From: Watersipora subatra | Taxonomy: Eukaryota > Bryozoa > Gymnolaemata > Cheilostomatida > Watersiporidae | Length of the DNA stretch: 64,000 bases | Direction of reading: 5' to 3' | Assembly: GCF_963576615.1 (NCBI RefSeq) | Contig: NC_088708.1 | Coordinates: forward strand, 558,001 to 622,000 | In this document: piece after piece, positions 15,401 through 59,827 of the stretch | Numbering within the stretch: the stretch's first letter is position 1 | How the letters are laid out: every line of letters begins with the position of its first letter | The notes under the pieces: generated by a model | What the model was told of the DNA's origin: nothing | Database searches by the model: none | The model's input: the letters and a program-made list of their open reading frames with translations, nothing else | Translations under genes and position numbers: made by a program

Positions 15401-18400
15401 AGCTTTTAATGGCTGGCAGATGATTAGCGAAGAGACCTTTTGTAAAATTATTATAAATGTTGGCTGTAGCCAGTGCTGTTCATGCTTTAATGTGCCTTGC
15501 ACAGCATTCCAACTTGTTTATAAACAGCCCAGCAACATAATTCACCTTTCAGGGACCACATCATAAAATAATAGTTTTTGAGCCAAATTTGTTGTTGTCA
15601 AAGGATTTTTGCAAAGCATAGCCAATTACAAAATGCTAATGCGTCTAATACAACCATATGTTCATCTAATACAACCATATGTTCATCTAATACAATTGTA
15701 CGTTCATCTAATACAACTGTATGTTCCTCTAATACAACTGTATGTTCATCTAATACAACTGTATGTTCATCTAATGCAACTGTATGTTCATCTAATACAA
15801 TTGTATGTTCATCTAATACAATTGTATGTTCATCTAATACAACTGTATGTTCATCTAATACAATCGTATGTTCATCTATTACAACTGTATGTTCATCTAA
15901 TACAACTGTATGTTCATCTAATACAATTGTTCTGCGTCATGTCACTTTACCATATATTTGCAAATGTTTGACCCAGAAAAAATTAATTCTGCTGCATCTT
16001 TTATATGCCAGACACAAATTTGTAAAAGCACTCTTTTCAAAGTCAAACTTTAAACTATGATATTATCATGTTAACAAACCAAAGAATGTAATCTAGCAGT
16101 ATCAAATTACTGGTGTAATCTAGCGTGTAATCTAGCAGTATCAAATTACTGGTGTAATCTAGCATGTAATCTAGCAGTATCAAATTACTGGTGTAATCTA
16201 GCATGTAATCTAGCAGTATCAAATTACTGGTGTAATCTAGCATGTAATCTAGCATGTAATCTAGCATGTAATCTAGCAATATCAAATTACTGGTGTAATC
16301 TAGCGGTATCAATTTACTGGAGAATTCGGACTGTTCGACACTCACCGAGGTGGCTTTTCAAGGGAATCGTTTTAAGGGAAAGAATCATGACCTGCAGGTT
16401 AATTTTTAACAAATCTGATCATAAACTTGTTCTTTTATTTGATAATATCATGTCTCCCTCGTTAATCATAGTTCATCTTTTTTGTTTTAGACCCTTCTAT
16501 CGAACTGAGCAACTTATTATAACCTTTGATAAGAAAATGTGGAAGGATTTCTCTCACCAGGACCCATACCCTGCAACTACTTTCTCGAACATCAGTGGTG
16601 CATTTAACAAAAAACTACTTGCTGAGGTCTCTATTCACTTTCGGTCATTCAGTATGTTGTTGATGAAAATCTATGTTCAAGTGAGTCTGATGTTGTTATG
16701 TGTTTATCACTATTTCTCTCTCTTGCAGCTCGTCAGCCTCCAGAATGACATCTCTGAGTTAGTTGCTCCTTACAAGGATAATGAAACAGTCAGTCTCTCG
16801 GATATCTGCTTTATGCCTCTCTACCCGGACAACACATACTGCACAATCAACAGTGCTGTCCAGTACTTTCAGGTACGGCCTCGCTATTTTCATCAGTTGC
16901 GCTGTTGCCATACTAAGCTGTGCATATCCCAACATGCACATATCCCAACATGCACATATCCCAACATGCACATATCCCAACATGCACATATCCCAACATG
17001 CACATATCCCAACATGCACATATCCCAACATACACATATCCTAGCATGCACATATCTCAACAAGCAAATATCTCAACAAGCACATATCTCAACAAGCGCA
17101 TATCCCAACAAGCGCATATCCCAACCAGCGCATATCCCAACAAGCGCATATCCCAACAAGCGCATATCCCAACATGAACATATCCTAACATGCACATATC
17201 CCAACATGCATATATCCCAACATGCACATATCTCAACAAGCACATATCCCAACAAGCACATATCCTAACATGCACATATCCCAACATGAACCTATCCCTA
17301 CATGCACATATCCCAACATGAACATATCCCAACATGAACATATCCCAACATGAACATATCCCAACATGAACATATCCCAACAGGACCTTTCATGGTCGTA
17401 AGCCTACACAAGGTAATGTCATGCACTGCAGAGTACATATACATGCTTAATGATAATATACCCACAGGCAGGGTTGGCGCACCCTATGTAAACATCTTGT
17501 CTAACTCAGGGCTAACTCCCAGGTTCCTCTCTCATCTGTCACTCCCAGGTCCCTCTCTCATCTGTCACTCTCAGGTCTCTCTCTCATCTGTCACTATCAG
17601 GTCTCTCTCCTCATCTGTCACTCTCAGGTCTCTCTCTCTCATCTGTCACTATCAGGTCTCTCTCCCTCATCTGTCACTCTCAGGTCTCTCTCTCTCTCAT
17701 CTGTCACTCTCAGGTCTCTCCCTCATCTGTCACTCTCAGGTCTCTCTCCCTCGTCTGTCACTCTCAGGTCTTTCTCTCTCGTCTGTCACTCTCAGGTCTC
17801 TCTCCCTCATCTGTCACTCTCAGGTCTCTCTCTCATCTGTCACTATCAGGTCTCTCTCCCTCATCTGTCACTCTCAGGTCTCTCTCTCTCATCTGTCACT
17901 CTCAGGTCTCTCACTCATCTGTCACTCTCAGGTCTCTCTCTCTCATCTGTCACTCCCAGGTCCCTCTCTCATCTGTCACTATCAGGTCTCTCTCCTCATC
18001 TGTCACTCTCAGGTCTCTCTCTCTCATCTGTCACTATCAGGTCTCTCTCCCTCATCTGTCACTCTCAGGTCTCTCTCTCTCATCTGTCACACTCAGGTCT
18101 TTCTCTCTCATCTGTCACTCTCAGGTCTCTCTCTCATCTGTCACTCTCAGGTCCCTCTCTCATCTGTCACTCTCAGGTCTCTCTCCCTCATCTGTCACTC
18201 TCAGGTCTCTCTCCCTCGTCTGTCACTCTCAGGTCTCTCTCTCATCTGTCACTCTCAGGTCTCTCTCTCATCTGTCACTCTCAGGTCTCTCTCTCATCTG
18301 TTACTCTCAGGTCTCTCTCCCTCATCTGTCACTCTCAGGTCTCTCTCCCTCGTCTGTCACTCTCAGGTCTTTCTCTCTCGTCTGTCACTCTCATGTCTCT

Positions 18401-21400
18401 CTCCCTCATCTGTCACTCTCAGGTCTCTCTCTCATCTGTCACTATCAGGTCTCTCTCCCTCATCTGTCACTCTCAGGTCTCTCTCTCTCATCTGTCACTC
18501 TCAGGTCTCTCACTCATCTGTCACTCTCAGGTCTCTCTCTCATCTGTCACTCTCAGGTCCCTCTCTCATCTGTCACTCTCAGGTCTCTCTCCCTCATCTG
18601 TCACTCTCAGGTCTCTCTCCCTCGTCTGTCACTCTCAGGTCTCTCTCTCATCTGTCACTCTCAGGTCTCTCTCTCATCTGTCACTCTCAGGTCTCTCTCT
18701 CATCTGTTACTCTCAGGTCTCTCTCCCTCATCTGTCACTCTCAGGTCTCTCTCCCTCGTCTGTCACTCTCAGGTCTTTCTCTCTCGTCTGTCACTCTCAT
18801 GTCTCTCTCCCTCATCTGTCACTCTCAGGTCTCTCTCTCATCTGTCACTATCAGGTCTCTCTCCCTCATCTGTCACTCTCAGGTCTCTCTCTCTCTCATC
18901 TGTCACTCTCAGGTCTCTCACTCATCTGTCACTCTCAGGTCTCTCTCTCATCTGTCACTCTCAGGTCCCTCTCTCATCTGTCACTCTCAGGTCTCTCTCC
19001 CTCATCTGTCACTCTCAGGTCTTTCTCCCTCGTCTGTCACTCTCAGGTCTCTCTCTCATCTGTCACTCTCAGGTCTCTCTCTCATCTGTCACTCTCAGGT
19101 CTCTCTCTCATCTGTTACTCTCAGGTCTCTCTCCCTCATCTGTCACTCTCAGGTCTCTCTCCCTCGTCTGTCACTCTCAGGTCTTTCTCTCTCGTCTGTC
19201 ACTCTCAGGTCTCTCTCCCTCATCTGTCACTCTCAGGTCTCTCTCTCATCTGTCACTCTCAGGTCTCACATATCCTCCTTCACAACATTCATAAACCTTA
19301 TCTTGGGTCTTCTCCACCTCTTTACTCCTGGCAATGTCCCACGCCCATTTTCCTACATACTCATAATCCCTTGTCAACATGTGTCCATACCACCTTCCAT
19401 ACCACCCTCGCCTCCACTCTCTCAATATCTTCCCAATCCTTTTAAGACCTGCACTTACCCTGATGTACTCATGTCTGATCTCATCCATTCTAGTCACTCC
19501 TTGTTTTTTATGTAAGCTTATGGATATTATGTTGGATATTATATCTATTGTCACTGTGTTTTATTATTATATCGATTGTCACTGTGTTTTATTATGTGTA
19601 TTGTTACCATGTTTTAATTGCAGAATAACGCATCTGCTTTGGATGACATCGCTTATGACCCAACAGGCTTCGAAGTGGCTGCAGATTACATTGACCATAT
19701 GAAATCCTGTACAGGGTGCGTTGTCTGTCTGTCTATGTCTTTGTATAAGTATGGCAGCAGTGAGCTATTAACAGGGGTCAGTAAAGGTTCAGTGCTATTT
19801 CTTTTTGTGTTCAAATTGTAACCAATGTACGGTTATTGGTATGTTTGAGGGTCAGGGCGCCGTGTAAGGCTTATTCCTTCTTGGTTAAATTTAGAGTTAC
19901 CTTTACAGAGACCCAAGTCAGACGGTAGATGCAACAGCTTTGAAAAAGAACTGTCTCGCTCAGTATGGTGCTCCCGTCTCTCCTTGGGTCGTCCTCGGCG
20001 ACTATCCAGGTTTGTAAAGTTTCTCCCTCACTCGGCTAGTGTCTCATAGTTTAATCTTAGCTTAGAGCACAGTTCAGCACGGTACGTACGTTCAACAAAT
20101 ATTTGTCATATCTGTCATACCTGTCATACCTGGCAGGTGACGACTACATGCTGGCCAATGCGCATGTCATCACCTTCACAGTCAACAACTACCATGACGC
20201 GGATGACCCAAAGCTTGCCAAGGCTAAGGCTTGGGAAAAGACATACTTGGAGTTCGTAGAGAACTACGTAAAGACAAAAGCCCCTGCGAAGGGAATGAAA
20301 ATAGCATACAGCGCAGAGGTTGGTTATACATACGAGTCCGTTTAGACCAGTGCATTCAGTTTGTATTTGTTGAGGAAATCTTATGACCGGCCATTAAAAT
20401 ATACTGTTCTTTGTGAGAGCATGAGACGAGCAGAAATTAAAGCACTTGCTCATCTGTTCTTCATGCGCTTTCAGCGATCCATTGAAGATGAGCTGGCGAG
20501 AGCCAGCCAATCAGATATTGCCACAATTGCCATCAGCTACCTGCTCATGTTCGCTTATATCGCCCTTGCCCTTGGTGATTGGGTGCCTTTTGACTGCCCA
20601 CAAGTGATGGTGAGTTGCCACTCTACTCATGCAAAAGGACACAATAATAACACTAATAATAACACCAATAATAATACTAATAATAACACCAATAATAATA
20701 CTAATAGTTGCCTGAGTCATCGAGGTAAAATCAGCCACACATTTCCATAGCCACTACTGGAGCACACGCGCCGCAGCCGTCAGATATATACTTTACAAAT
20801 TCACGCTTTTCCAAATGACGTATCTGATAAGTGTAAAGACTAGACAGTCTCCTTACACTTGTTATCATATAAAGTTTGATAAATCTATTCATTGACAGTT
20901 CTGGCAGTTCAAGAAATGTTGCATTATTATTTAATATATGAAGAAAAATGAATTGCATAAATAATTCAAGAAAATCCTAAGCTGTTGAATGTATAACTAC
21001 TACAAGTATAACATGAGAGTGTTTTTTTATTTATTTGTCTAACTGGTACGAGATTTTTATGAACTTAACCACACATGTTTTACTATATTTATATACATAT
21101 ATTTACATCTATATTTATAGATTTACTATATTTATATACATGTATTTACATCTATATTTATAGATTTACTATATTTATAGATTTACTATATTTATATATG
21201 TTACTATATTTACATCTATTTACATCTATTTATATATTTACATTTATTAAAATGCAAAACCTAGCCTTGCTTCACCTCTTCTTCACCCCTATCTTCAATT
21301 ATAAAATTAAACTAGATTAAGTTATTTATTTGCTTTCTCCGATTTCTGAGATAGCCATATGGCGCTATCGAATAGCAATACGAGGCAGTGTTACTTAGGA

Positions 21401-24400: not shown

Positions 24401-27400
24401 GTTAAATGCACAGTTATCACTCTAGGGGGAGATAACTCTATGAGTGTAACACTCAGATAAAATGCGTAGTTGAGGACTATACGTGAAATTCTGCATTAGC
24501 TGGTAAACTGAAATAGAAGCTCAGGTATTAAAAGCTAGATAGATGGGGTCTATTATGTAATGCTATTTCGTACAAGATGTTTCTTAGAATGTCTACAAGT
24601 AGATATGAGTTCACTTTGTTTGTTTAGAGTTGTCTTCTCGGGTCTGTAAATGATGAAATATTTTTCCAAAGTACATGATTTGCAATTTCCGCTGTTTTTG
24701 GAGTAAGGCTTGGCGTGTGATAAAATTTGCAAGGTGATGTGGTAGTCGGTGCTGCTTTCTCGGAGGTCCCATATGTAGCTGCTTAGCTCGGCAGAGTGGT
24801 GTTTGGATATGTCCTTGAATGTAGACTTGTGATGGTTATATTTTGTTTTGAAGCTGTTTTCGGTGAGCCCTACATATGTGGCTACAGGTTTGTTGTCACT
24901 ATCTTTTAGTGACAGTCACTTTTACTTTGAAAGATAGTGACTTTTAATCACTATCTTTTAGGTTTTATATCACTGATTTTGCTAGGCAATTGTCTGGTAA
25001 TGAGCAGGTGTTTTTATTTCCGCAATTGCAGCCAGGATTAGTTGTTTCTTGATGGTTCAGTGATAGTAGCTTCTGATTGTGAGAGTTGATAGCCTGTTTC
25101 ACATTGTTCATGCAGCTATAGCTTAATTTTATAATATTTCTGTTAAAGATTTTGTGTAGCTTGTGGTTGGTGGAAAATTCTTCATCGATTAATTTGAAGA
25201 AAGTTTTCCCGATGTTAGTGTGTGCGGTGTTGCTGTAAGGGAGGCTGTACCAGATTGTGTTTCTCTTTTTTGTTTATTTCTTGCCTTTCGTTGTTGAGCT
25301 CTAAGTGAGGAAAATTCTAGCTTGTGTTGGTATTCACTCTTTGCTAATGCCTCCTGATAAATAGGGGCAGCTTTGCGGAAGGCATTTTCATTTGATGAAA
25401 TTTCTGGGAGTCTTTTGTTAATTGCCAGTGGTATATTTTTGATGATGTTAGATGGGTAATGAGAATCTTTGTGAACATAGGTAATGGTGGTGTTTGGCTT
25501 TATGTATTATGTACTTTGGAAAAATATTTCATCATTTACAGACCCGAGAAGACAACTCTAAACAAACGAAGTGAACCAATATCTACTTGTAGACATTCTA
25601 AGAAACATCTTCTACGAAATAGCATTACATAATAGACCCCATCCATCTAGCTTTTAATACCTGAGCTTCTATTTCAGTTTACCAGCTAATGCAGAATTTC
25701 ACGTATCGTCCTCACTAAGCATTTAATCTGAGTGTTACACTCCTTTTGTGTAATATGAAACTTTTAGTAATTTTTATGCTTAGCCAAATTTTAATAAATT
25801 TCTCACCAAATTTATAGTAAGGTCTACTTCAGTATCGAGCACTTTATGCCGACTTTCAACCTATACTTTATTGTAATAGAGAACATAATTTATTAACAAA
25901 ATTAAATAATTGTAGTGAAGCCATTTTTCATCAAGCAGCCTGGAGATGGGCAACTGGTGCACTGGAGGCTAAGAGTTGATTGTCTAATGGAATTTTTAAA
26001 AAGTTTCTCACCAACTTTTGGTATTTGCTCGCATGTATTAGCAAATCTTTTCAGCAATGCCATACGTTTCCTGAAAGGCCTTTAGCCAATAATAAAAAGC
26101 TTTTGTAGCCATGGTATTCTGCATTACATTCTAAAACGTTTAGTACTTGCAGCAAAATGACTTGCTGATGTCCAGTCAACTAAGCCTTTAGTATCCTGCA
26201 TCGAGTGCTGAAATGAGTTTGTTATCATAATAAGTCTAAATACAGTTGTAGTATTCCGATTCTCGTCCAACTTAGAATTTATACGGTAGTTGTCATATAA
26301 TAGTTTTATTCAGTCTCAATATTGATATATTTGCATTAATTCAAGTTTTTGATTTGAATTCAACACTCTATAATCGTTACAATGTTCCCAACTAAATGGA
26401 TATCAGGCTGATAACACGATATCCAATTCACCAGCTTGAAAGCGTCCCATTTCTGAGCATGTTAATAGAGTATCATTTTTCAAGAACTTTTTAAGTTCAC
26501 ACTTTCAAGTCATGTTTAAACATCGCTAGTTGCTTTCAGAGGCAGAGTCACTAACTCGCTGTTTAAATTCATTGATCTTGACCCGCTTCCACCTATTTGT
26601 AGATACAACAGAAGTTCTCTCTTGGTTTGAGTGGAGTTCTTATCGTTCTCCTTTCTGTGTCGAGCTCTATCGGTCTTAACAGCTATTTCGGCTTCAGTCT
26701 GACACTCATCATCCTCGAAGTTGTTCCTTTCCTTGTACTAGCTGTCGGTACAGACAACATTTTCATCCTTGTCAATGCACTTGGGGTAAGTTTCATATAT
26801 GAAGTCTTCTTCGTTAGTTTGTTATACTTGCAGACATTTCAAAGCGGACATTTTAAGCTCACTAAACATTTTGTTGACAGCGAGACAGAAGGCTCGTTGG
26901 GGAAAGTAGAGAAGAACAAATTGGAAGGGTGCTCGGTAAAATCGGACCAAGTATGATGCTGACGAGTTTCACCGAGGTCTGCGCCTTCTTTCTTGGTGAG
27001 TTTCTCTGTTTCACTGAGCCCTCTAGTGTTTCACTGAGCCCTCCAGTGTTTCACTGAGCCCTCCAGTGTTTCATTGAGCCCTCCAGTGTTTCACTGAGCC
27101 CCCCAGTCTTTCATTGAGCCCTCCAGTGTTTCACTGAGCCCCCAGTGTTTCATTGAGCCCTCCAGTGTTTCACTGAGCCCTCCAGTGTTTCACTGAGCCC
27201 CCCAGTGTTTCACTGAGCCCTCCAGTGTTTCACTGAGCTCCCAGTGTTTCACTCAGCTTCTCGGTGTTTCACTCAGCCTTCCGGTGTTTTCATTGGCCTA
27301 CCACACATCAAAGACATTTCACCTGGTGTTCTTACTGCACTTGATAACACACCCCTTGTGAGATGGTCTCATCTGCTGTTCTTTGCTGCAGGTGCCCTCA

Positions 27401-30400
27401 CAGACATGCCTGCGGTCAAAACATTTGCCATGTACTCAGCTTTTGCTGTACTAATAGACTTCTTGCTGCAGATTACCTGCTTTGTCAGCCTCATCAGTCT
27501 TGACATGCGACGCAATGAGGTAGAGTATCCTCTAACTTCCTCCACTCGATGCAAGTCTGAACGTATCTTGTCATGTCAACTATTCCTATAAATTTATTGG
27601 GTTTTCTACTTTTGCTTTTGTGGTTATTAGACCTGGTCTCGAAGTTGTACTGAACCCTCTGAGGATTAGTCACACAAAAATGGCTATCTCTGTAAGCAGC
27701 TGTTATTATTTTCAAACTAACTAAAAATATGTGCGCTATTTGAATATATTACAATAAGAAGTTATTCTTTGATGGTCCCATTCGATAGAAATGATAGAGA
27801 ATGGTCTGTAGTGTTTATCTTTAAAAACATATTTTTGTAGAGATATAAAACTGTTTTCAAACAAGCATCTGAAGGAAATACTTATCTGTAGCATTCCTTG
27901 GGGAATACAGCTTTGTTCACAGGATTCTGTTCTATCAACCATTATATTTGTAGTTTATGGTTTGATTCAGTTTTCACAGGTGCATCTGCAGAGAACAAGG
28001 TTAACAGTAAGGATGGCTTAAAATGCCTATCTACTTGTTGTTTGCAGAAAAACAGATTTGATGTGGCGTGTTGTGTGAAAGCCGATATCGGCGAAAGATA
28101 TGAGCCCAAATCGATACTTTATATTATATTTAAGCAGCTCTATGCGCCTGCAATTCTCACAGATTGGGCCAGAAGTGTGGTGGTGAGTCTGTCCAACTGC
28201 GCTCATTACTCTTCCATTATAATGTGATTATGTGTGATAGCTTTATGTCACTTTGGTAAAACATGTTATTACACTGATGGCATACTTCATGATTTCCCTA
28301 TCATATGATGTAATTGTCTTTAGCTTTCCATCGTGAGAAGAGCTGCTGTGTTGTAGATCGTTGCATTTGGAATATGGGCCTGTTTCTGTCTGGCTGTCTG
28401 TAACAAACTGGATATCGGATTGGACCAAACTTTGTCTATGCCGGAAGGTTCATATGTCATCAATTACCTCACAGAAATCAACACTTACCTATCTACAGGT
28501 AAATGGGATACCTGCGCATACATGTACATCTTTCCTGTGAACCTACTCACCTTATACAATACTAAACACTGTTTGACATGGAGAGGGGGTCTGGTGCTCT
28601 TTGTGCAGCTTTTTAGATATGATGCTAGCGGATACGGCAGCAAATTCCTTCACATGGAGATATATGTGTGTACACCACATGTAAATCTCTTTTAAAATAC
28701 TTATGGTTTAACAAGCAGAAAATATGATCTTAGACATTCTTCTTCTGTAGTCATTCTTCCATCGTCATTCAGCCATCAAATGTCTTAATAAAGACATTAA
28801 TAATGCATCTTCTAACAAGCTGACCTCCCCTAACACTTACAGTACTGAACCCTAGCTCAGTCTAAGACAGCTCAATGTCTGCAATGTTCCCTGTCACAAT
28901 GGCTAGGGGATGCCTCACCTACGCCTCACATTGTAAAATAAATGATTTTGGAATTACTGTAGTTGGGCGCTTCAAAATGCGTTTTGTAGAATTAAAGCAA
29001 CATTTGGATAAGAAGTTGTTACAAGGTGCACTTTCTTTAGTGCAAATAAATTTTGCTAAGAAGTGGCCATGTACTGGTAGAACTAGGGCTAATTGAAATA
29101 ATGATATATAAGGAGATGGTCATCGGAGCTCTAGCAATTTGCAGTATCATTCAATAAGCATCTTCACATCATGACTGCGGTCTTTATACCATATTTGTGG
29201 TCTTTACATCATAGTTGTCGTCTTTACATCATACTCGTAGTCTTTGACATCATGGCTGTGCTAATATGCTAGTTGAGGTTGTTTAAAGCTTGAGTGGAAC
29301 TTGAAGTTGACCGTGTGAATGTGATTTGAGGTTGATCACGTGGGGGTGATTTGAAGTTGATCACGTGGGTGGGACTTAGAGTTGACCTGTGTGTGACCCA
29401 GAGTTGACCCTGCAGGTGTGACTCGGAGTTGACCATATGGATGTGGCTTGAAGTTGACCATATGGATGGGGCTTGAAGTTGACCATATGGATGTGGCTTG
29501 AAGTTGACCACGTGGTTGTGTCTTGAAGTTGACCACGTGGGTGTGTCTTGAAGTTGACCACGTGGGTATGTCTTGAAGTTGACCATATGGATGTGGCTTG
29601 AAGTTGCCTGTGCGGGTGTGCCTTTGGGGCCTGTCATGAGGTTGTTGCTTAAAATTTCATTCAGAATTGGAAAGTTAATTTCCTTGCTGTAATAAAACAA
29701 CAATGGTAATATCTATTAGATAGGATCTACCTCCTTAATGCACCTAATCCTTCTCCAAATAGTACAGCTCATGTCTCGAGTCTTCCCTGCCCATGGCTGC
29801 CTCCTTAATGCACCTAAACCTTCTCCAAATATTACAGTTCATGTCTTGAGTTTTCCCTACTCATGGCTGCAACTGTTTATAACCTGTCATCATTAAAATT
29901 ACTACTTGTATTTCATTATTAGTTATGACTACTAACAGAGCTGTCTATTTTATGTGCAGGAAGTCAGCTAAGCACCCTAAAGATAAAGCCTATAGCTTAG
30001 GTTAGATATTGATGGTACATGGAATTTTATCATGACTTTCAACAACTGTCTAGAATTATAATCATCCTCTACTAAATTAGGCATATTTCATTTAACTGGT
30101 GGTAGTGTGAGGCTGCCTATATCATGTATACGCTTCGTATCTACATGGACTTTATGAGTTTGTCAAAGAAGTACTCGGGTATATCCAGTAAATGTATATT
30201 ACAGGTGCTCCTCTGTATGTACCCAGTAGATGTATATTACAGGTGCTTCCCTGTATGTATCCAGTAGATGTATATTACTGGTGCTCCTCTGTATGTATCC
30301 AGTAGATGTATATTACTGGTGCTCCTATGTATGTATCCAGTAAATGTATATTACAGGTGCTCCCCTCTATGTATTGAGTAGATGTATATTACAGGTGCTC

Positions 30401-33400
30401 CTCTGTATGTACCCAGTAGATGTATATTACAGGTGCTTCCCTGTATGTATCCAGTAGATGTATATTACCGGTGCTCCTCTGTTTGTATCCAGTAAATGTA
30501 TATTACAGGTGCTCCCCTGTATGTATTGAGTAGATGTATATTACAGGTGCTCCTCTGTATGTACCCAGTAGATGTATATTACAGGTGCTTCCCTGTATGT
30601 ATCCAGTAGATGTATATTACCGGTGCTCCCCTGTATGTATTGAGTAGATGTATATTACAGGTGCTCCTCTGTATGTATCCAGTAGATGTATATTACAGGT
30701 GCTCCCATGTATGTATCCAGTAGATGTATATCACAGGTGTTCTCCTGTATGTATCCAGTATATGTATATTACAGGTGCTCCTCTGTATGTATCAAGTAGA
30801 TGTATATTACAGGTGCTCCTCTGTATGTATCCAGTAGATGTATATTACAGGCGCTCCTCTGTATGTATCAAGTAGATGTATATTACAGGTGCTCCTCTGT
30901 ATGTATCCAGTAGATGTATATTACAAGTGCTCCTCTGTATGTATCAAGTAGATGTATATTACAGGTGCTCCTCTGTATGTATCCAGTAGATGTATATTAC
31001 AGGTGCTCCTCTGTATGTATCAAGTAGATGTATATTACAGGTGCTCCTCTGTATGTATCCAGTAGATGTATATTACAGGTGCTCCCCTTTATTTTGTTGT
31101 GAAGCCAGGGCTTAACTACAGTCTTCCACCAGAACAGAATATTGTATGTGGCTCAGCTGGTTGTCCCTTTGACTCCCTCGCCGGTCAGATATATCAGGCA
31201 TCTCTCCAAGCCAACGGGTGGGTCTATTCGCTCATTCTTTCTTTTCTCTGGTTAGCTAGCCGTTGTTTCTCGTAGGCTAGCTGGTGCGTCACTGCAATAC
31301 AAACACCAAAGCCATCTATGCACATTTTGCAGGACATACATTGCGCATCCAGCGTCAGCTTGGATAGATGATTATTTTTCTTGGCTTCAACCACCTAAAT
31401 CAGGTATTGCCTGTTGCCGCTACCGGACGCAGCCAAATGGCACGAAAGTATTTTGCCCGTCTTCTGGTGAGTGATTTTCTGCCAAAGTTTTTCTTAGATA
31501 AAACACTGTTCCGCTATTAAATAAAACAGTCCGATTACACTAGCGTAAATAATTGTTGTGGTCACTTATGCATCTTTTGTTAAGAACTCTTTCAAACTGT
31601 ACTGTCTAGTATTATATCATTCTCAAGTACTTATCATCTTTTTTAGACCAAGATATAAGGTGCAAGACATGTGAGGTTGAGTTCAGCCAGGGAAGGCCAG
31701 ACTCGGCTGCATTCGAAGAATATATATCTTTCTTTCTTATTGATAACCCAAATCCTACTTGTTCCAAGGGGTGAGTCATGTCTCTTTATGTCTAATTCTG
31801 TCTTCCGTATCAAGGGGTGAGTCATGTCTCTTTAAGTTTCATTCTGTCCTCGGTATCAAGGGGTGAGTGATGTCTCTTTATGTCTCATTTTGTCCTCCGT
31901 ATCAAGGGGTGAGTCATGTCTCTTTATGTCTCATTCTGTCCTCCGTATCAAGGGGTGAGTCATGTCTCTTTATGTCTCATTCTGTCCTCCGTATTAAGGG
32001 GTGAGTCATGTCTCTTTATGTCTCTTTACGTCTCATTCTGTCCTCGGTATGTTTCCTCAATCAAGTTACTCCAAGTCAAACCCTATGCTCTTTTCTTTTT
32101 TCCATCAGCTGTCTGTCGGTTGTCATCAAGCGCAGTTCACACTGCTGTGGGAGGTCAATAGTATAATAACTATACTTGTTATATTGGGTTGTGGTATATA
32201 CACTCAATATAATACAGTACAGTATATCCTTTGTATATACACTCAGTATAATACAGTACAGTATATCCTTTGTATATACACTCAGTATAATACAGTACAG
32301 TATATCATTTGTATATACACTCAGTATAATACAGTACAGTATATCCTTTGTATATACACTCAGTATAATACAGTACAGTATATCCTTTGTATATGCACTC
32401 AGTATAATACAGTACAGTATATCCTTTGTGTTCAGTTGAGTTTCACAATTTTTTATTGCATGTTTTTTTCTATTTGTTGATGACTGTCTGAATCGTAGGT
32501 TGATTAGGTAGGTGTAATAATTTTTATAATTTCATTATAAATTTACTAATAGACCAGAAGCTAAATATTTGTGGCTAGAGAAAAGCAAGTATGAATAAGT
32601 TAGCACTTATCACCATTGCGGGGTCACAATCATCTTAGTCAAAGGCTAGTAGATTAATTTATTCGTTGGATAATATGGTCTGTTGCCATTGGCTAATATG
32701 GTCTGTTGCCATTGGCTAATATGGTCTGATGCCATTGGCTAATATGGTCTGCTGCCATTGGCTAATATGGTCTGCTCCCATTGGCTAAAATAGTCTGCTA
32801 CCATTGGCTAATATGGTTAGTTCCCATTGGCTAATATGATTTGCTGCCATTGGCTAATATGGTCTGTTGCCATTGGCTAAATGGTCTGTTCCTTGCTACT
32901 AAGCATTCTTGTTTTTCCTCAGTGCCTACCAGAGGACTGTGGAGCTCTTCTGAGACCGGTTATTATCTCCTACCTTTAGCCATTCAATAAACTGCATGTT
33001 TAATGTAGTCTAAAGCACTAATTGGTCTGTTAACTTTCAGAGGACACGCTGCATACGGTGCTGGAGTGAAGTATAACGGCACATACATGCATAACCAAGT
33101 ACAGGACACGTACTATATGACATACCACTCTGTGCTCACTAAAGATCAGCAATATATTGATGCCCTTAACTTCTCCCTCAATCTCGCCTCTGATATTCAG
33201 GTTACCATGCGGAATAGCTGTGCTAGCTGTACGAATATTGAGGTCTTCCCATACAGGTGCGTTTTATTATATTCGATCAAAGTAAATCAGTTAGCTATGT
33301 TGTGTGTTAGAGCAGAAACCTGGTGTTTGGTACCCAATGCTATTGCTAGGCTATTACTGCAATCTTATTGCAGTGTCTGGCATGTCTACTATGAGCAGTA

Positions 33401-36150: not shown

Positions 36151-37848
36151 AAATATATTGCTTACAGAGCACATCTACTACAAACAGGATACATCTATTA
36201 CAACAGCATACATTTATTGCAAACAAATTACCTATTTTACAAGCAGGGTACATCTATTAAAAACGGGGTACACTCATTGCAAACAGGGTGAATCTATTGT
36301 AAACAGAGTATGAACAATAATAGTCTATTAGGCTTGCAGCATGCATTTTGAACATTGCAGCGCTATTGCCATTTAAGTACCGCAGCCATGAGCTCACCAT
36401 TTCGGTTGTAAGAGTTTTTTTTCTAAAGAATTGTTTCAGTGTTACACATTTTGCTTGCAGACTTGTACAGTGGACCTGCATGGTGAACTGGCATGTTAAC
36501 GCATAGCCTTCTCTCTAATCCTTAGCAATTCATTCTGTTAGAATCAATAAAGCCTTTGTGTATAGGAAAAGGCTATTATGATTACTAGCCCATAAGGCCT
36601 GCAAGCACAGGCTCACTAGCATATATGACCTGCAAGCACTTGCTATCACACTTTTACCTACGAGCATAGCAGTGGATTATTCTCTATGGAAGGGTGAGCA
36701 TCTCCACTGATATCTTCATCTTAATTTCGGATAATTTCTGTGCATCTCATTGCTTGTTTCTGGAAGAAGTCATGTATTTCTTTGCATTGTATGGGTGCGA
36801 GTAGGTGAGCTGTTGAGGGTTGGGAGAGCTGAGGCTAGCAAGGAGAGCGAGTTGAAGTGGAGAAAAGCAGGTCTGTAGCGGAGGTGACAGAGACGAGTAA
36901 AGAGTAGGAAATTGAAACTAGGACTACGGTTGTGAACAAGGAAGACGACAGATAGTTCAAGTGAACAGGTGAGCTTTCAAGAAGATGGGGAGAACAGAGG
37001 CTAACAGGGAGAGCGAGTAAAAGCTAGGGGGAGTAGTTGTTAGCGGAAAAAGCATTGGGAAATAGGTAGGAGTAGGGAATATCAGATAAAATGAAAAGAA
37101 AGTATGAGAAAGCAGGAAGGGCAGGATAGAGCAGGTAGAGCGGAAGACCCGCGACAGTAGGAGAGGGCAGGGCTGCTGGACACTGAACAGGCATTTCTTT
37201 GCCTGTAACTCTTAATAATGTGAGGCAATAAACAAGACTTTCACCCTATACATACATTGATGGGCTCCTTCCTTCTAGCGACTGTCTTATTTAATACTGC
37301 AAAGTTTTAGTGATAAAATTTGAGAAACAGTTTATTCTTTATTATTATTATTCTTTATTAGTGAGAAAAATAGTCAAGCAGTTCTTATGGGCTGCAGCTA
37401 TCCCAGCATGCCATGCAGTAGCAGGCTTATGTCAGCGGACAATAAAGTTGAGGTATGTTTACATACAAAGTTCAACTACTGCTGTTTGCAATGCCTGGGC
37501 GCAGCATATTCTCACCGCCATAACATTGAATACATTTGGTACCTTCCAATACCTCTCCTTAGCTTCTCCGCACTTCTTAGTATGTCAGAATTTTAGTTTC
37601 AATTTATATTTTTTAAGTTGTTTTCTCAGCCAAAGAAGTTGGACTTTATATAATAGTATTCTATGTAACAGGCAAGTTAAACAGTTTTGACTTTTTACAT
37701 TTTTGGTGGACAGTTTGATTAAACAAGTGCTTATCCAGATGCAGATATATTTGCTCTTCATATCAACATTCTCAAACATTTGCTTGCAATAAACTGCCAG
37801 GCATCAGTTGGGACATTCGCCTTATCCTGAGCAGTCGAACCAGCTACC

Positions 37849-40800
37849 ATGGCAGGTGAGCCTCTTTCTATAGACCTTCTCATTGGAAAGGCGCAAGCGA
37901 CTATTAAACAATGTGAGGTGATAGAGAAGTCTAGAGTGAGGGTTTCCTGGAGTGACAGCAGTGGAGACAGTATTTATCCAATGATGCTTCTGCGGGACTG
38001 TTGCCCTTGCGAGAAGTGCTTTAGCCCAAGTGTTAACTCACGGCTGACTTTGTTTGAACAACTGCTCGCCGCTGCCTCTAGTGTTGCAAACATTTCATCT
38101 CAGGTATGTTGATGTATGTGCAGCAGAAACTCTTACATGCGTAATATTACAGATTCCTTTTCTTCAGTCCTTTTTAGAAGAGAATTTTATTCGTTGTCAA
38201 AATGGGACGGTTCTGGTAACCAGCAGCATTGAATATATTTAAAAAAGAACATAATAGCACATTAAGTAAGAAAACAAAATATTAATGACAAAAATAGCCT
38301 TTGCGTTATTTGTTAGCCTGAGAGTCTATGCATTGATTGGGAGGATGGGCATAAAAGTGTGTATGAAGCTGAGTGGCTCTACAGACGCAGGCTTGAGCGA
38401 GCTGCAACAGAAGATCGACTATTGAAGATGTACTGTGAGGTGCAGGAGACCCCTTGGACGATTACGAAACCAGAAGAGATAAAAACTGGTCGATATGATG
38501 ATGTAAGTTTTCAGAGAGTCCTAAGTCTAACGTACGCATCCAATTCTGTAGTTGGATAAACATGTTTATCTAAAGAGAGAGCAAAGTGTTTAGACTTCTA
38601 TTTATTAATGCTGCCGTGATGCCATTTTGCTGACGCTCTTTCGCAGCTCAATATTTACTCTTTCTGTTTTTGCGCGAGCGTTTTGATCTGCTATACCGAC
38701 AGCGTGTAGAGCAGATCTAAAGATTGCTTTTGAATAGAGCCTGACACAAAGTCAACTCGCGATTACTTTGTGTTCAACTCAACCATCAACTATATATTTA
38801 TAGCAGCATATTAATGGACATAATACAACTATAAACAAGTAAGAAAGTCAACTAGCATTTGATCATTCATCATCACAACTTAGTCTTTGTATTTAGATTT
38901 TGCGAGATCCAGCAAAAATTGTTGAGTTCACGGAAACACTCATTCGAGATGGAGCATACGTTATCAAAGATGCGCCTCCCCGACACTGCCTTGTTGAGTT
39001 TTTAAGAGAAATAAAAGCCAAACATCAGAGCACACACTACTCGGATGGCGAGTGGGTTATTAAGAATATACCAACAAGTAAAGATTTACCCAACTCAAGC
39101 AAAAAACTAGAGCTGCACATAGACATGCCCTACCTGGTCAAGCCTCAACAGGTTAGGAGTTGTCTGTCCCCTGTACTTAGCATCGCTATTGTTTAGAACT
39201 TCTCAGCAGGTATGAGTAGTGGATATTGTTACATAAATGATTATGCGCCTGCCTGTACAATGGTGTGACTGGTGGATATGCCTGTACCCTAATATGTCAT
39301 ACACTGGTATGATTGGTAAATAGAATTGTCACCTGCAGAGACTGTTATTTCCAGTATGGAAGATAAGAAATATGGATGGATTACACAACATTTAAATATT
39401 GTACAAATCTAATATGTATCGTGTGTTGCAACCAAAAAAAGGTTTGTGAACTTGTAATGGCTAGTTACTTTAGCTGAGCATCATCACTAACTACCACAAA
39501 TTTGTATCATTGAAAAGTATTTTTGATATGAGCTGTTGCTATGTGCTGTTGCTATGTACTGTTGCTATGTACTGTTGCTATGTACTGTTGCTATGTACTG
39601 TTGCTATGTACTGTTGCTATGTACTGGTGCTATGTACTGTTGCTATGTACTGTTGCTATGTACTGTTGCTATGTACTGTTGCTATGTACTGGTGCTATGT
39701 ACTGTTGCTATGTATCACTCTCAAGCGCCATTTTGCAATCACATGTATCTAAAGACATCGCAACAATTCCTTACCGTCTGCAATAAGACAGATAGGAATT
39801 GTGCGATTGAATGTACATCATATTTGTTTGTATCATTCTTCCCGTAACTGTGTTATGTTTGGCCGTTGGGTGTGTAAGATATATTGAAATGCATTTTTAG
39901 AACAGATTTTTTTAGAAAACTTTAATCAGACTTAACTTGTAGCTGCAGCTTCTACATTGTCTCGTGCAATCTGCAGATGGAGGAGAAAACAAGCTTTCTG
40001 ATGCTCTCAAAGCTGCTTTACTACTGAAGAAGGAAAACCCAGAATATTACAGAGTCCTGAGTAGTGTAGAAGTGGACTTTCAATTCATAAAGCGATACAG
40101 AGGCTCCCATGACTGGTTCATCTGTAACAGAGCTCCAATAATTCAGTTAGTAGAAAGTTTTTGATCAGTATGGCTTCGCTTCCTATCAGTACGTAGCAGC
40201 TTTACAATTGGTTAAGGAACTGAGGCTAAGATATGAAGTGTTTGTTCTTATCCTCAGAATAGAGGCTAAGATGAAGTTATATTCACTAGTTTAAGAAATA
40301 GAGGCTTAGGGATTTTGTGAGAATACTCTACTCTAAGGAATTGAGGGTAAAGGAAAGATACTTCACTCTAGATTGGAATAAAATGGATGCTACAACAGGG
40401 GTGTAAGCAGACTAGGTGCTACAGGAAGGGGTGTAAGCAGACTAGATGCTACAAGAGGGGGTGTAAGCAGAATAGATGCTACAAGAGGGGGTGTAAGCAG
40501 ACTAGATGCTACAAGAGGGCGTGTAAGCAGAATAGATGCTACAAGAGGCGTGTAAGCAGAATAGATGCTACAACAGGGGTGTAAACAGAATGGATGCTAC
40601 AAGAGGGGGTGTAAGCAGACTAGATGGTACAGGAGGGGGTGTAAGCAGAATAGATGCTACAAGAGGGGGTGTAAGCAGACTAGATGCTACAAGAGGTGTG
40701 TAAGCAGAATAGATGTTACAACAGGGTTGTAAACAGAATAGATGCTACAAGAGGCGTGTAAGCAGAATAGATGCTACAAGAAGGGGTGTAAGCAGAATAG

Positions 40801-41859
40801 ATGCTACAAGAGGCGTGTAAGCAGAATAGATGCTACAAGAGGGGATGTAAACAGAATAGATGCTACAAGAGGGGGTGTAAGCAGAATAGATGCTACAACA
40901 GGGGTGTAAACAGAATAGAGGCTACAAAAGGGGGTGTAAACAGAATAGATGCTACAAGAGGCGTGTAAGCAGAATAGATGCTACAAGAAGGGGTGTATGC
41001 TCTCCTTTAAGGAACAGAAGGAAAAAATGCCTACGATATCTTAATCAGACCAGAAAAACTTAAATATGATGATCACCCCGACGTGCTCATAGCAACAGTG
41101 TGACATATCTTCATCAATACTACCTCATAGCAGTCAACTTACTGCCTTAATACAATGTATTCAGAGTTTAGAACCTCCTGAATTTGTACAGCTTTATGTG
41201 GTTACAGTAAGCATATACAACTACAGTAATAACTTTAATTCAGTATATTACGCATTCTTGTGAGCTATTATGGTATATTATTTATGTTTTGATATTTTAG
41301 AGAAGATCCAAGAACTGGTCTTCCATCTCTCTGTCGTTTCGCCGCCGAAGTGCGTTGCTCTTCCTTTAACCAGCCCGTGGAAGTCATAGAGTCGTGGTAC
41401 GAGGCCTTCAGGCATTATTGGAGTATCCTTGAGCAGCACTCTATACTAATTAAGTCCTCCCCAGGTTAGTTGTGAACCGAGAAAAGATTGACCAAAGATT
41501 TCTTTTGTTAAGACATAAAAATCATAAAAAGCGTTCAGCTACAAGATTGATCAAGATCGTTGAGAGACTTGTGTTGATTATTATACTCGCAGTGCATGTA
41601 AATAAGTGGGTCACATGTAAATAAGTGGGTCACATTAAATAAGTGGGTCACATGTAAATAAGTGGGTCACATTAAATACTCTTGTCACGTCTGATATTTT
41701 CTAGGAGACATTTTAGCATTCAACAATGGGAGGGTGATGCATGCTCGAGAAGCCTTTAATCAGCAGCAGGAGAGACAACTTGAGGGTATTTATGCAGACT
41801 GGGACTATCTGATGTCTGCTTGGCGAGTCGCTAAATGTGAACTGAATCGAAGAGTATAA
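37849..41859 (+). CDS. Gamma-butyrobetaine dioxygenase-like 2-oxoglutarate/Fe(II) enzyme (6 exons)
   Basis: Member of the BBOX1/TMLHE family, whose enzymes use Fe(II), 2-oxoglutarate and O2 to hydroxylate gamma-butyrobetaine or trimethyllysine in carnitine synthesis. Exons: 37849-38103, 38317-38502, 38897-39151, 39943-40145, 41301-41464, 41705-41859; total 405 residues (human BBOX1 is 387). The N-terminal zinc module is present: RDCCPCEKC gives C52, C54 and C57, and H97 in EDGHKS fits the fourth ligand. The iron triad is H221-x-D223 (LHIDMP) and H367 (VMHARE). The end EGIYADWDYLMSAWRV resembles the BBOX1 C-terminus, which favours BBOX over TMLHE. The part around residues 185-215 is quite diverged, so substrate is uncertain. 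ACCATGG is a good start context. Confidence 0.85.
39529..39716. repeat. 13-bp repeat, about 14 copies (BBOX-like gene intron 3)
   Basis: Unit CTGTTGCTATGTA with a few CTGGTGC variants. Confidence 0.93.
40380..40998. repeat. 28-30-bp minisatellite, about 21 copies (BBOX-like gene intron 4)
   Basis: Unit AAGCAGAATAGATGCTACAA plus GAGGGGGTGT, with length variation in the G run. Confidence 0.93.
41597..41675. repeat. 17-19-bp repeat, 4 copies (BBOX-like gene intron 5)
   Basis: Unit AAATAAGTGGGTCACATGT, alternating with a form that lacks GT. Confidence 0.85.
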
Positions 41860-44061: not shown

Positions 44062-44335
44062 ATTTAGTACAGGTTGGCGGACCCATTTAGCACTGTATGT
44101 CTAGTACAGATTGGTAGATACATTGCATATTGTAGGTTTAGTACAGGTCAGTAGATAAATTTAGTACTGTATGTTTAGTACAGGTTAGTAGATACATTTG
44201 GTACGGTATGTTTAGTACAGGTTAATGGATACATTTGGTACTGTATATTTCGTACAGGTTAGTGGATACATTTGGTACTGTATATTTCGTACAGGTTAGT
44301 GGATACATTTGGTACTGTATGTTTCATACAAACCA
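44062..44335. repeat. About 37-bp degenerate repeat, about 7 copies
   Basis: Units of GTACAGGTTAGTGGATACAT plus TTGGTACTGTATGTTTA, diverging at the left end. Confidence 0.88.
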
Positions 44336-47203: not shown

Positions 47204-47404
47204 CTTTCGCTTCTGTACAAGAGTTTGAACGATACCAAGAGACATTGTCTCATGTTCCTTGTAAGGAAAGCTCTGGAAAAATAGCTTGCATTGTGTATGA
47301 ACTGGTTTGAGACCATTTCTGGATGCACAAAGTTAAAACGTCTCTTAGAGCGCAAAGCTGATCACAACCTGTTTTTTACAGTTTAAATCAAAGAACTAGC
47401 AGAT

Positions 47405-50400
47405 ATGAACAAACCTGCAGAGCCTCAGGCATTTTATAATGGTAAGGATGTCGCGGAGATGGGCATTGGCACAAAACTCGTTGCTCTTACTGTGAAGAAT
47501 GAGCGGACCAACAACCGGCCAATGGTTACCCCCATCTACCATACAACCATGTACAAGGCAGAGTCTAGCGCTGGATTTGTAGATCAGATGTCGAAAGGGT
47601 TTGGGTACTTGCGTGTGAGGAACCCTAACATGGATGAAGCGGAGATGACTATCGCTCAAGCTGAGGGGGCCAAAGGTAGTCTCGTTTTTCCCAGCGGAAT
47701 GGCAGCCATCACTAGCACGCTCATGTGTTTCCTCAGGCCAGGTGATCATGTAGTCGCACAGTCACCACTTTACAGTTGCACTTCCTATGTGCTTGACAAC
47801 ATGCTCTCTGAGTTTAACATAGAAGTGAGTTACGCTGACGCTGGTGGGGATGAAAGTCAATATCGAAAACTGGTGAAAAAAAACACAGCGCTGTTGTATG
47901 GAGAGACTCTATGCAATCCCATGATGCACTTTCTCGATGTGAAAAAGTTTGCGGCTATTGGCAAAGAGTTGAAGATCATGACTGTCATTGACTCAACATT
48001 CACACCTCCCACAATTCTTGTAGGTTATAAACTAATTGTTCATCAACAGGTTCAACTTTATTTGTATGAAACTGTTATATCTGTTAGTAAATGGGCGTTA
48101 CTTTGACTTGTCATGTAATTGTTATATCTGTTTGTAAATGGGTGTTACTTTGACTCGTCATGTAATTACAGCGCTCACTAGACTACGGGGTAGATGTGGT
48201 AATGCACAGCGCCAGCAAGTACCTTTGTGGGCACAGTGATATGCTCGCAGGCTGTGTCAGTTTCAACGACCTTGACCGTTATGAGAAATTGAGGACCTGG
48301 CGAGTTTTCATAGGCAGCTCTCAGTCACCCTTTGACAGCTCACAGTTGGTGAGAAGCTTACGAACACTACACGTTCGGTAAGTCGCTTATCAATAACTCT
48401 GCTAACACTTGCCAGTGCCAAGATCTGAAACCCCAGCCATCGAAAGCCAACATATGTACAATAGATGTAAATAGTATAGCTTCCGTAATCAGGTGAAAAG
48501 CACAGAAATGCGGCTGAACTTTGTATACAACCTGTGTCATAGTTAATCACAAAACACGGTGATGCTAAACAAGTAAACTGAATGTTGTCTTGAACATGAG
48601 TATGACAGCATGCCACAACACCCTTCTGGTGACATGTGTATGACAGCATGCCACAACACCCTTCTGGTGACATGTGTATGACAGCATGCCACAACACTCT
48701 TCTGGTGACATGTGTACGACAGCATGCCACAACACTCTTCTGGTGACATGTGTATGACAGCGTACCACAATATTCTTCTGGTGACATGTGTATGACAGCA
48801 GGACACAACACTCTTCTGGTGACATGTGTATGACAGCATGCCACAACACGCTTCTGGTGACGTGCTTGACAGCGTGCCACAACACTCTTCTGATGACATG
48901 AGTATGACAGCATGCCACAACACCCTTCTGGTGATATGTGTATGACAGCATGCCACAACACTCTTCTGGTGACATGTGTATAACAGCGTACCACAATATT
49001 CTTCTGGTGACATGTGTATGACAGCGGGCCACAACACTCTTCTGGTGACATGTGTACGACAGCGGGCCACAACACTCTTCTGGTGACATATGTATGACAG
49101 AGGGCCACAACACTCTTCGGGTGACATGTGTATGACAGCATGACACAACACTCTTCTGGTGACATGTGTATGACAGCATGCCACAATACTCTTCTGATGA
49201 CATGCAATGACAACATGCCACATGATTCCTTAGGTGGTATGTGTATGACAGCATGTCACTAGAAGAATCTGGGTGAAAATGAGGCAGTGTGTTGTAATAC
49301 TTGTAGAACTGAGAGGCACAGTGAGAATGCATTGGCTGTTGCAAAGTTCCTTGAACAGTACCCACTCGTGACAAAAGTTCACTACATCGGGCTGGAAAGT
49401 CATCCTCAGCATGCCATCGCTGCCAGTTTAATGAAAGTATGACAGGCTATCCTCTAATATGATGTTGCCCAACTACAATGATGTTGTTTTTAGTAAATAA
49501 GTTAGCATATTTAGTAGATATCTTCGCAACAGGTTTAAAAATAAAAACCTTTGTTTTTCTGCATGCAGTTCTTACCTGTGGAATATTGACAGAGCAGCCC
49601 TATTACCTTCTATTCACTATTATGCAGGGGTTTGGAGGTATGCTCGCCCTCGAGCTAAAGACCAAGGAACAAGGAGTGAGGTTTGCAGAAAGTACAAAGT
49701 TGTTCAGACTTTCTGTATCACTAGGAGGAGTTGAGAGCCTGATAGAGCACCCAAACACAATGACGCACAACAAAACCGTAGTTACATCTGATGAGGTACG
49801 CTTATGCCAATCTAAACTATATATCTTCTGTTGGAATACCTGCCCGATGAGCCTAGCATCAAATCCTTACTCTATGTCACCGAGTCTGTGATATACAGTG
49901 CTCTATTTTCCTAGGTATTATCATATAACTGATCTAATTTGACTGCTAAAAAATTCAAACATTGAAATGGAAAAATCGACGTAATTTTTAGGATTTTTAC
50001 AGGCAGCTCCTAATGGAGCTACAAAAAAACAAATTCAACAGCTAATAAAATATGTAACTTCTCCCTGCGTATTATAAAATCAAGAAGACCTTATTTAAAC
50101 AACAGTCGACTTGCACCACACTTTGTTATTTCCGTCTGATGAATGACGCAAAATTAGGAGAGCACGGAGGTACTACTACTCATTTAGACAAAAATTTCAA
50201 ATTGAAGTTTTTTTAATTATGTTGGAACTGTAGCCCAATATGTTCAACTTAATAATAATGCCATTCGCAATGCATCGCTTGTTCAGTGTTTAATTCTCTT
50301 TAAAACTATTAAAATTATTAAATATAGGATGAACCAAGGTGACTACTGTTCACAGACTCCCCTTCCGGTCATTTAGTTGGCTGTGGGTAGCCTGCGGATG

Positions 50401-56484: not shown

Positions 56485-57224
56485 AGTTGCTGCATGAAAG
56501 GACAGCAGACACCATTCATGTAACTTTCAGCGAAATGTGACCGATATGAGGAACACTCTATCAATGACCCACAACACACATTTTAGCATACGCTGAAGGC
56601 ATTTGCTATCAGGCAAGCATTCGTAACTTAGAAACATTCAACTATTATAACTATTGTAATTATTGTAATTGTGCATCAATGCAATGCGTTCATGCACAGT
56701 TAGGACTCTACCAGACTTTTTTATCATGTAACATTGTGTCCCGCGAGCAAGGTGAAACCTATTGTAATTCTCCTACAATTGTAAGGGAATTACAGTAAGA
56801 ACTTGAATACCCCGCATGTGCCATACGCATGGGGAATCATGAAACATCCATTTGTATTGCTCGCCCAAAACAATTCTTGTGATCAACCTTTCCCATGTAC
56901 TCTCTGAGAAACAACAACTTAGTCCAGCAATTTTTAAACTCCCAAATCTAATTGTAATCTGAGATTTCTGCAGGCTAATAGCATGTATTTTGTTCGAATC
57001 TATGTTGAACATGCACTTTCTCTGTGCACTGGTTAGGAAGGAAATAGCAATGAATCAATGTGTACACAAAGCCGAGAGCATATGCAGAAATGCTGCAGCA
57101 TATACACAAAAGATGCAGTATATAAACAAATATTGTAACGTGTTTTGATTTGGTTAAAACAGCAAAACTGTTGAAGTTATATTCCAATGCATCCCTGAAA
57201 TATTATTGAACAGTAAAGTTACTT
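56485..57224. other. FADS6 upstream region
   Basis: AT-rich, with ACTATTATAACTATTGTAATTATTGTAATT-like short repeats near 56640. No motif strong enough to call a promoter. Confidence 0.4.
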
Positions 57225-59160: not shown

Positions 59161-59827
59161 TGTCTTGTTTCTAAGAAACCGTGCTGAATCATGAATGAAG
59201 AACCACATTAATTCTGCATATTTTCAAGAAACTTTTGAACAGTTTGCATTCTAGAATATGTCTGATATCATTAAATACTCTCAATTCTTGGTGGAATAGT
59301 ATAACTCTACATCGGAATTTATTGAGAATCAACTGAAATATTTTCAAGGTCGTATCTCTACTGGCAATCCAATTAACATAAAAAGACCAAATAACACCAG
59401 AAATGTTTGGAGCTGATGTAAGTGAATATAATTCTATACATATGATAGATATAGATGAAGTGACTAAGAAATACAAAATTTAATTAGCTGAAAGTTTACA
59501 AAATTTATGTTTTGAAGATAGCACAACCGATTCCTTTCAAGCATCAATGAATATACTCATAAGATGCCCAGTGGGTTGATAAAAGGTAATCCAGCATGAG
59601 CTATAAAATTATGTCCTCGCATAGCACAAATAGAGAATATTACTGCTAACTTATAATGTCTATTCATATGTTAATACAACGAAAAGGAAGGTGTAACATT
59701 TTAGTCAATATCCAGTATAAAATAAAACTATAGAGATATTATAATAAACTCCAGCTCAAAAAATTTGGGTCAACAGAGTTAGAAATAATGTATGAAAAAG
59801 TAAGACGAAGTCTACTAGCCCAAGACA
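59161..59827. other. Spacer between the 68-bp and 53-bp satellites
   Basis: Unique AT-rich sequence with one 95-codon minus-strand frame (59189-59476) that has no recognisable motif. Confidence 0.5.

Follow-up and report, generated by a model that had tools for sequence, protein, structure and literature searches.

This report concerns a window of 64,000 nucleotides of the bryozoan Watersipora subatra (contig NC_088708.1, positions 558,001 to 622,000) and, within it, a gene for the Niemann-Pick C1 protein NPC1, in which one intron ends in a minisatellite (30182-31092, plus strand) that runs across the 3' splice site into the following exon. The array consists of 24 units of 38 bp, each of which joins the 3' end of the intron (TATCCAGTAGATGTATATTACAG) to about 14 bases of the exon that follows (GTGCTCCTCTGTAT). 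Most probably, this is a neutral and tolerated minisatellite of the type known as 'mirages', which would have arisen by a chance tandem duplication across the splice junction and of which the copy next to the exon would be the one that is used.

The NPC1 acceptor and its minisatellite

The NPC1 gene model was seeded by tblastn with a human NPC1 sequence. It comprises 24 exons and 23 GT-AG introns and, once joined, reads through 1,226 codons without a stop; the gene's first exon and its last lie outside the model. The weak point of the model is the donor at 16627 (GAG/GTCTCT; the slash marks the splice junction), which was preferred to a stronger neighbour on the basis of its fit to the protein alignment. 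The exon that adjoins the array (31079-31217, plus strand; 139 bases) starts with codons for G-A-P-L-Y, and the exon that precedes it (28357-28498, plus strand) ends with ..YLST-G, where it supplies one base of the glycine codon. Residues 885-928 of a Protein Data Bank chain named Niemann-Pick C1 protein were matched by the exon at 31079-31217 (2.2e-06) and residues 846-886 of the same chain by the exon ending at 28498 (7e-08), and the joined region around the junction matched NPC1 in the Protein Data Bank with a value of 4.2e-55. We take the chain matched by both exons to be the human protein. These matches bear out the initial annotation, in which the gene had been recognized as NPC1 and the exon had been called its exon 20; the assignment to NPC1 stands, and the number is not established, as among the 24 modelled exons this one comes 18th and the model does not reach the beginning of the gene, where one or more exons precede it.

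The peptide encoded across the junction aligns gaplessly to YLHAG-PPVYFVL of NPC1 and to YLEVG-PPVYFVT of NPC1L1 (chain 6v3f), with G-A-P-L-Y placed opposite G-P-P-V-Y in both chains. This gapless alignment indicates that the acceptor lies at 31078 and that the start of the exon is older than the array. Since the exon codes for residues that are common to other NPC1 proteins, copying proceeded from the exon edge into the intron. The earlier proposal that the exon edge lies inside the array agrees with this, and the comparison of protein sequences supports the conclusion that the edge of the exon is part of the array and that the array is derived from it.

Tandem Repeats Finder described the array with 24.0 copies, 91% matches, 0% indels and a score of 1521, and in a direct pattern scan the units followed each other in strict steps of 38 bases, 24 of them from 30195 to 31069, which is in agreement with the earlier count of about 23 units upstream of the real one. 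Each unit consists of TATATTACAG followed by about 14 bases of the following exon. The real acceptor coincides with the last unit, which adjoins the exon at 31079; its AG, at 31077-31078 (plus strand), is identified as the functional 3' splice site by the gapless protein alignment and by the reading-frame test given below. CAG is found in register in 19 of the 24 units, the real acceptor among them, whereas two of the remaining five units read CTG, two read CCG and one reads CAA with its AG shifted one base later. That most units keep the AG and some have lost it, as had been noted initially, is therefore correct. The host intron (28499-31078, plus strand) has a length of 2,580 bases and contains further arrays at 29161-29253, 29300-29606 and 29730-29870.

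When the first 14 bases of the exon (GTGCTCCCCTTTAT) were compared with the same place in the 23 upstream units, 11 to 13 of the 14 bases were identical, corresponding to one to three differences. The exonic part of the real unit is thus unlike that of all 23 others. Such a difference would be seen if the unit at the edge of the cluster escaped homogenisation, as in mirages, but coding constraint alone could account for it. A shuffle test on the first 20 bases of the exon against the 38-bp unit gave p = 0.007. Similarity between adjacent units (lag 1) amounted to 0.939 among units 14-24 as compared to 0.884 among units 1-13, and similarity peaked at lag 4 (0.927) for units 1-13 but at lag 2 (0.959) for units 14-24; these peaks fit an expansion in blocks of four and of two units. 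Three of 22 distinct base changes fell in the two AG columns (P = 0.107), and no clear selection for or against the decoy AGs was seen.

The consequences of using other acceptors were studied by taking every AG in the region 30151-31100 (n = 67) as the sole acceptor of the NPC1 model. Only the AG at 31078 left the frame open, in agreement with its earlier designation as the real acceptor with an exon start at 31079. All 19 AGs of upstream units led to a stop between 56 and 212 bases past the junction. The initial annotation had further suggested that the choice among acceptor offsets might switch between functional and non-functional NPC1 mRNA, and that an offset of three units (114 bases) would restore the frame. 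The frame is indeed restored by three units, but the reading does not stay open, as an in-frame TAG follows 98 bases past the junction, and an in-frame isoform of this kind is ruled out. None of the other 66 AGs gave an open frame, so that a choice between functional mRNAs through the acceptor offset is not available and the frame rule is wrong in the form proposed. The idea of a splicing switch is unsupported.

In terms of motif strength, the real acceptor does not stand out from its copies. With an acceptor weight matrix trained on the window's own introns, from which acceptor 31078 had been excluded, the real site scored 4.6 and the 18 upstream CAG copies scored from 1.3 to 5.3. Within its intron, acceptor 31078 ranks 11th of 152 AGs, while in 19 of the 23 introns no AG scores above the true acceptor; the other 22 acceptors were part of the training set, which favours them.

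Additional exons were modelled as well, running from the AG of one upstream unit to a GTATGT farther on and then spliced to 31078. From 19 upstream AGs and 21 GTATGT motifs, with at least 60 bases of intron remaining, 180 combinations were obtained, and 17 of them left NPC1 open; in 15 of these 17 the extra exon has 48 bases (16 residues) and extends from the AG of one unit to the GTATGT of the next. Of the two contexts in which GTATGT mostly occurs, one gave a donor score of 2.3 and the other of 3.7, whereas none of the 23 modelled donors scored below 3.9. A recursive-splicing site, at which an acceptor is directly followed by a working donor, was considered by matrix score only: the AG/GT pair CAG/GTGCTC, present in 14 of the 24 units including the real one, reached -1.2 as a donor, below this minimum of 3.9, and CAG/GTGCTT, present in three of the 24 units, reached 5.1.

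Two further boundary arrays and the chance of seeding

Two more arrays in the window span splice sites. In contrast to the acceptor array, both are built from copies of a donor and thus have a mirrored organization. One of them (31765-32024, plus strand; 46 bp, 5.7 copies) belongs to NPC1 itself and has a unit that opens with the last six bases of an exon (CAAGGG) and the donor GTGAGT. The donor that is copied, at 31771, belongs to the NPC1 exon at 31647-31770 (plus strand), and five more copies of AAGGG/GTGAGT come after it. GTGAGT is kept in all six units, the same 11 bases are present in register in all six, and each of the five extra donors brings an immediate stop.

The other array (54176-55311, minus strand; about 41 bp, about 28 copies) lies in a fatty-acid desaturase gene (53536-56526, minus strand; approximate limits), and its unit contains the last 13 bases of an exon, GCACCCCTTGTCT, and the donor GTAAGT. 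The source exon (55299-55397, minus strand) codes for LGDSATWKAPLIPRYIYMFFAPILLPVLAPLV and ends with GCACCCCTTGTCT/GTAAGT, the real donor at 55298 being the exon-adjacent copy of the array. A total of 29 units was found, one of them truncated, and 25 have an exact CT/GTAAGT. With each of the 27 alternative donors that were tried, a stop is met. No stop interrupts the joined desaturase model, which matches positions 5-252 of the 253 in the FA_desaturase profile with 1.2e-16; the open reading frame around the middle exon (55299-55397) gave no Pfam match when searched by itself.

In order to estimate how many boundary arrays would be expected by chance, seeding was modelled such that each array starts as a one-unit duplication at a random place in the introns counted, edges included, with duplications that span a splice site assumed to be tolerated. 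The window holds 54 non-redundant arrays covering 20,173 bases, and the count was made for the 32 of them that reside in 25 introns with known limits, where they fill 10,501 of 25,587 bases. Under these conditions, 2.49 of 32 arrays are expected to span a splice site, which is close to the observed number of three (P(>=3) = 0.459). With a margin of 10 bases the expectation decreases to 1.54 of 32 (P = 0.195). For periods of at least 20 it amounts to 2.22 of 25 arrays (P = 0.386), and for such arrays that are also longer than 200 bp to 1.38 of 16 (P = 0.153). In the strictest subset, the same 16 arrays with the 10-base margin, 0.90 is expected (P(>=3) = 0.056). A special nucleation of arrays at exon edges is therefore not supported, as the expectation from random seeding already gives about the observed number. 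The initial annotation had stated that the array grew from an exon boundary and not from random intron DNA; for this particular array the statement holds, while the number of boundary arrays in the window is not clearly above that of random seeding.

Six flanks of arrays close to splice sites were compared with their own units in search of additional boundary arrays, and with shuffle p values from 0.034 to 0.888 none was added. The positive control at 31765, with its six exon bases, did not reach significance in this test either (p = 0.181), and its case rests on the 11 bases shared in register by all six units. In the case with the lowest value (19537, p = 0.034) the alignment stays within the intron, short of the exon bases. 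Relatives were searched for with one NPC1 exon in viral_contigs and with 311 residues in genome_contigs, and none were found; a 17-base core had two single matches in viral_contigs (L001 and L002), which are presumably due to chance.

Splice-site choice and rival explanations

According to the explanation that we favour, a segment of 38 bases over the NPC1 intron-exon junction, with about 24 bases of intron and about 14 of exon, would have been duplicated in tandem once. The extra copy would have landed on the intron side, which would have left the coding sequence whole, and the array might then have grown in the intron by steps of several units to its 24 copies. Splicing would take the exon-adjacent copy, probably through pairing of sites across the short exon, and the other copies would be decoys that, as sole acceptor, would yield unproductive mRNA. 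This mode of growth, the faithfulness of splicing and the neutrality of the array are what we infer, whereas the anatomy, the source of the exon-derived bases, the effects on the frame, the two other arrays built alike and the agreement of their number with random seeding were demonstrated. Human data, as given in passages of PMC9225289, show that among competing sites of nearly equal strength the one closest across the exon is favoured in exon-defined settings, and that the hybrid class LS behaves like exon definition where 3' sites are concerned. LS was taken to denote a long intron before and a short intron after the exon, as section 5 of that article suggests, and the exon behind the array is preceded by an intron of 2,580 bases and followed by one of 115 bases.

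Several points weigh against this explanation. As the copies score like the real site, motif strength cannot explain the choice of the acceptor. According to the passages of PMC9225289, upstream 3' sites are also preferred overall in human, and as long as no filter for strength is applied each of the four classes prefers downstream 5' sites; both preferences would favour the decoys. Furthermore, the strictest subset in the seeding analysis (P = 0.056) leaves room for a mild excess of boundary arrays, and on paper an extra exon of 48 bases could be included with the frame kept.

An unlikely alternative to the tolerated minisatellite is that upstream units are in fact used, perhaps dependent on copy number, and that the array acts as a splicing valve, in which premature stops lower the dosage of NPC1 by way of nonsense-mediated decay. 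Such a function would be compatible with the 18 upstream CAG copies, whose scores are close to that of the real site, and with the stops obtained for all 19 upstream unit AGs, and passages of PMC4526556 report that human IFI6 uses two downstream repeat units as donors. However, the AGs of the array show no clear sign of selection, and the mirages of lancelets are described in passages of PMC3087553 and PMC3902484 as not disturbing regular splicing. It would be somewhat surprising, too, if the choice were decided by hairpins that mask the decoys, most of them burying their AG in a stem (UACAGG with UCUGUA) that is lacking at the true site owing to a CTT in the exon in place of the CTG of most units. 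Folding predictions hint at such a hairpin over the acceptor in 16 of the 23 upstream units, where isolated segments of 24 bases gave -4.3 to -6.9 kcal/mol, the value for the real site being -1.1. The probability that the AG is unpaired in its local context was 0.053 at the real site and had a median of 0.009 at the decoys, and among 788 intronic AGs outside of arrays 3.0% were as closed as 0.009 and 8.2% had a hairpin of -4.4 or below. Nevertheless, the real site is only fourth or fifth of 24 in accessibility under three settings, and the decoy at 30356, which keeps its AG and has the same hairpin of -1.1, is at least as open (0.07 versus 0.05). The hairpin would also have arisen once and then been copied, which makes it a single event. 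As a general rule, masking was rejected since it fails in both donor arrays, where all other copies among the 28 are more accessible than the real desaturase donor (0.009) and the real NPC1 donor is the fifth of six.

Both notions could be combined in a device tuned by copy number, in which hairpin-hidden acceptors and array length together would set the unproductive share of NPC1 mRNA, with a rarer form carrying the 48-base exon (16 residues) and a balance that would shift with haplotype or somatic length; we regard this as improbable. A further proposal is very improbable, namely that an upstream copy becomes an acceptor and that the piece up to the next GTATGT turns into an in-frame exon of 48 bases, in line with the tandem-duplication model of intron gain. 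The 17 open combinations out of 180 described above would permit it, a potato RdRp gene has gained an intron by a duplication that crosses an intron-exon boundary (passages of PMC4974935), and the authors of the lancelet globin study propose such a route for mirages (passages of PMC3087553). On the other hand, no upstream AG leaves NPC1 open as sole acceptor, the donors inside the units are weak with the exception of CAG/GTGCTT, and the NPC1 and NPC1L1 chains carry no insert at the junction. Just as hard to credit is an assembly artefact, by which copy number would be inflated or units misplaced. Tandem arrays are prone to assembly errors, and passages of PMC3087553 mention a draft genome in which one mirage had been misassembled, but the differences between units are orderly, with their periodicity of two and four units, and the NPC1 gene around the array is intact.

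Other features of the window and comparable systems

Some other arrays of the window touch on splice sites or on the genes discussed here. In the NPC1 intron 16873-19623 (2,751 bases), a CT-rich array of 26/28-base units (17515-19267; 64.5 copies) has a consensus that holds an acceptor-like CTCTCAG/GTCTCT, and by score the true acceptor is still the first of the 86 AGs there. A 37-base array at 44063-44324, away from identified exons, has a consensus unit that contains TACAG/GTTAGT, an AG/GT pair that resembles both splice sites. The arrays at 20104-20132 in NPC1 and at 48055-48167 in a gene for a pyridoxal phosphate-dependent enzyme of Cys/Met metabolism (47387-49888, plus strand; approximate limits) end four bases before an acceptor and contain no exon bases. 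Beyond the desaturase gene on the minus strand, a 68-base array with 22 copies and 98% matches (57665-59160) and a 53-base array with 79 copies and 94% matches, which runs to the end of the window (59817-64000), were detected. The window also contains a gene for a TauD-type dioxygenase (37831-41856, plus strand; approximate limits), which we take to resemble gamma-butyrobetaine dioxygenase, and a retroelement-like fragment (422-769, plus strand) with an Integrase_H2C2 domain (1.5e-06). Two open reading frames at 24556-25273 (minus strand) gave no Pfam match and may belong to a Penelope-type or GIY-YIG element, which they resemble.

Repeats that span exon-intron boundaries are a known kind of element, and in its sequence anatomy the NPC1 acceptor array matches the mirages of lancelets: its unit spans the boundary, the authentic boundary is the exon-adjacent copy, and many splice signals (AG or GT) are kept. 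Mirages were described in the globins BflGb6 and BflGb9 (PMC3087553) and also in PGBD5 and troponin C (PMC3902484), and passages of these articles characterize them as minisatellite-like copies across 5' or 3' intron-exon boundaries, many of which keep AG or GT. The two long arrays of the window differ by having 24 and about 28 units, whereas passages of PMC3087553 give six and three units of 150-160 bp for the two haplotypes of BflGb6. For Adh3, unit lengths of 10-72 bp are cited in passages of the same article, and the 38, 46 and 41 bp of the three arrays in the window fall inside this range. There, reverse transcription PCR of globins together with the data on Adh3 were taken by the authors to suggest no interference with regular splicing.

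In human IFI6 (6-16), the title of Turri 1995, as cited in PMC4526556, refers to a minisatellite with multiple splice donor sites. IFI6 resembles the present arrays in having tandem units with a splice site beside the authentic one, but two of its downstream units are reported as used in passages of PMC4526556, whereas the alternative single acceptors tested in the NPC1 array all break the frame. The duplication in potato RdRp likewise crosses an acceptor boundary and carries its splicing signals along; according to passages of PMC4974935 it consists of two copies, and RNA reads support the intron that was gained, in contrast to the 24 copies of the NPC1 array and its extra exons on paper. Recent human paralogs also have internal tandem repeats at exon-intron boundaries, minisatellites that are able to alter splicing and that vary between the paralogs; an exon edge in every unit is not stated in the passages of PMC2812944.

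With three boundary arrays in 64 kb, comprising 24 copies of an acceptor and about 28 donors, the window offers a clear natural test of how the spliceosome chooses its sites. Mirages seem to need no special seeding at exon edges, as random duplication combined with tolerance gives about this number. For the annotation of such genes, protein homology suggests that the exon-adjacent copy should be taken as the splice site.

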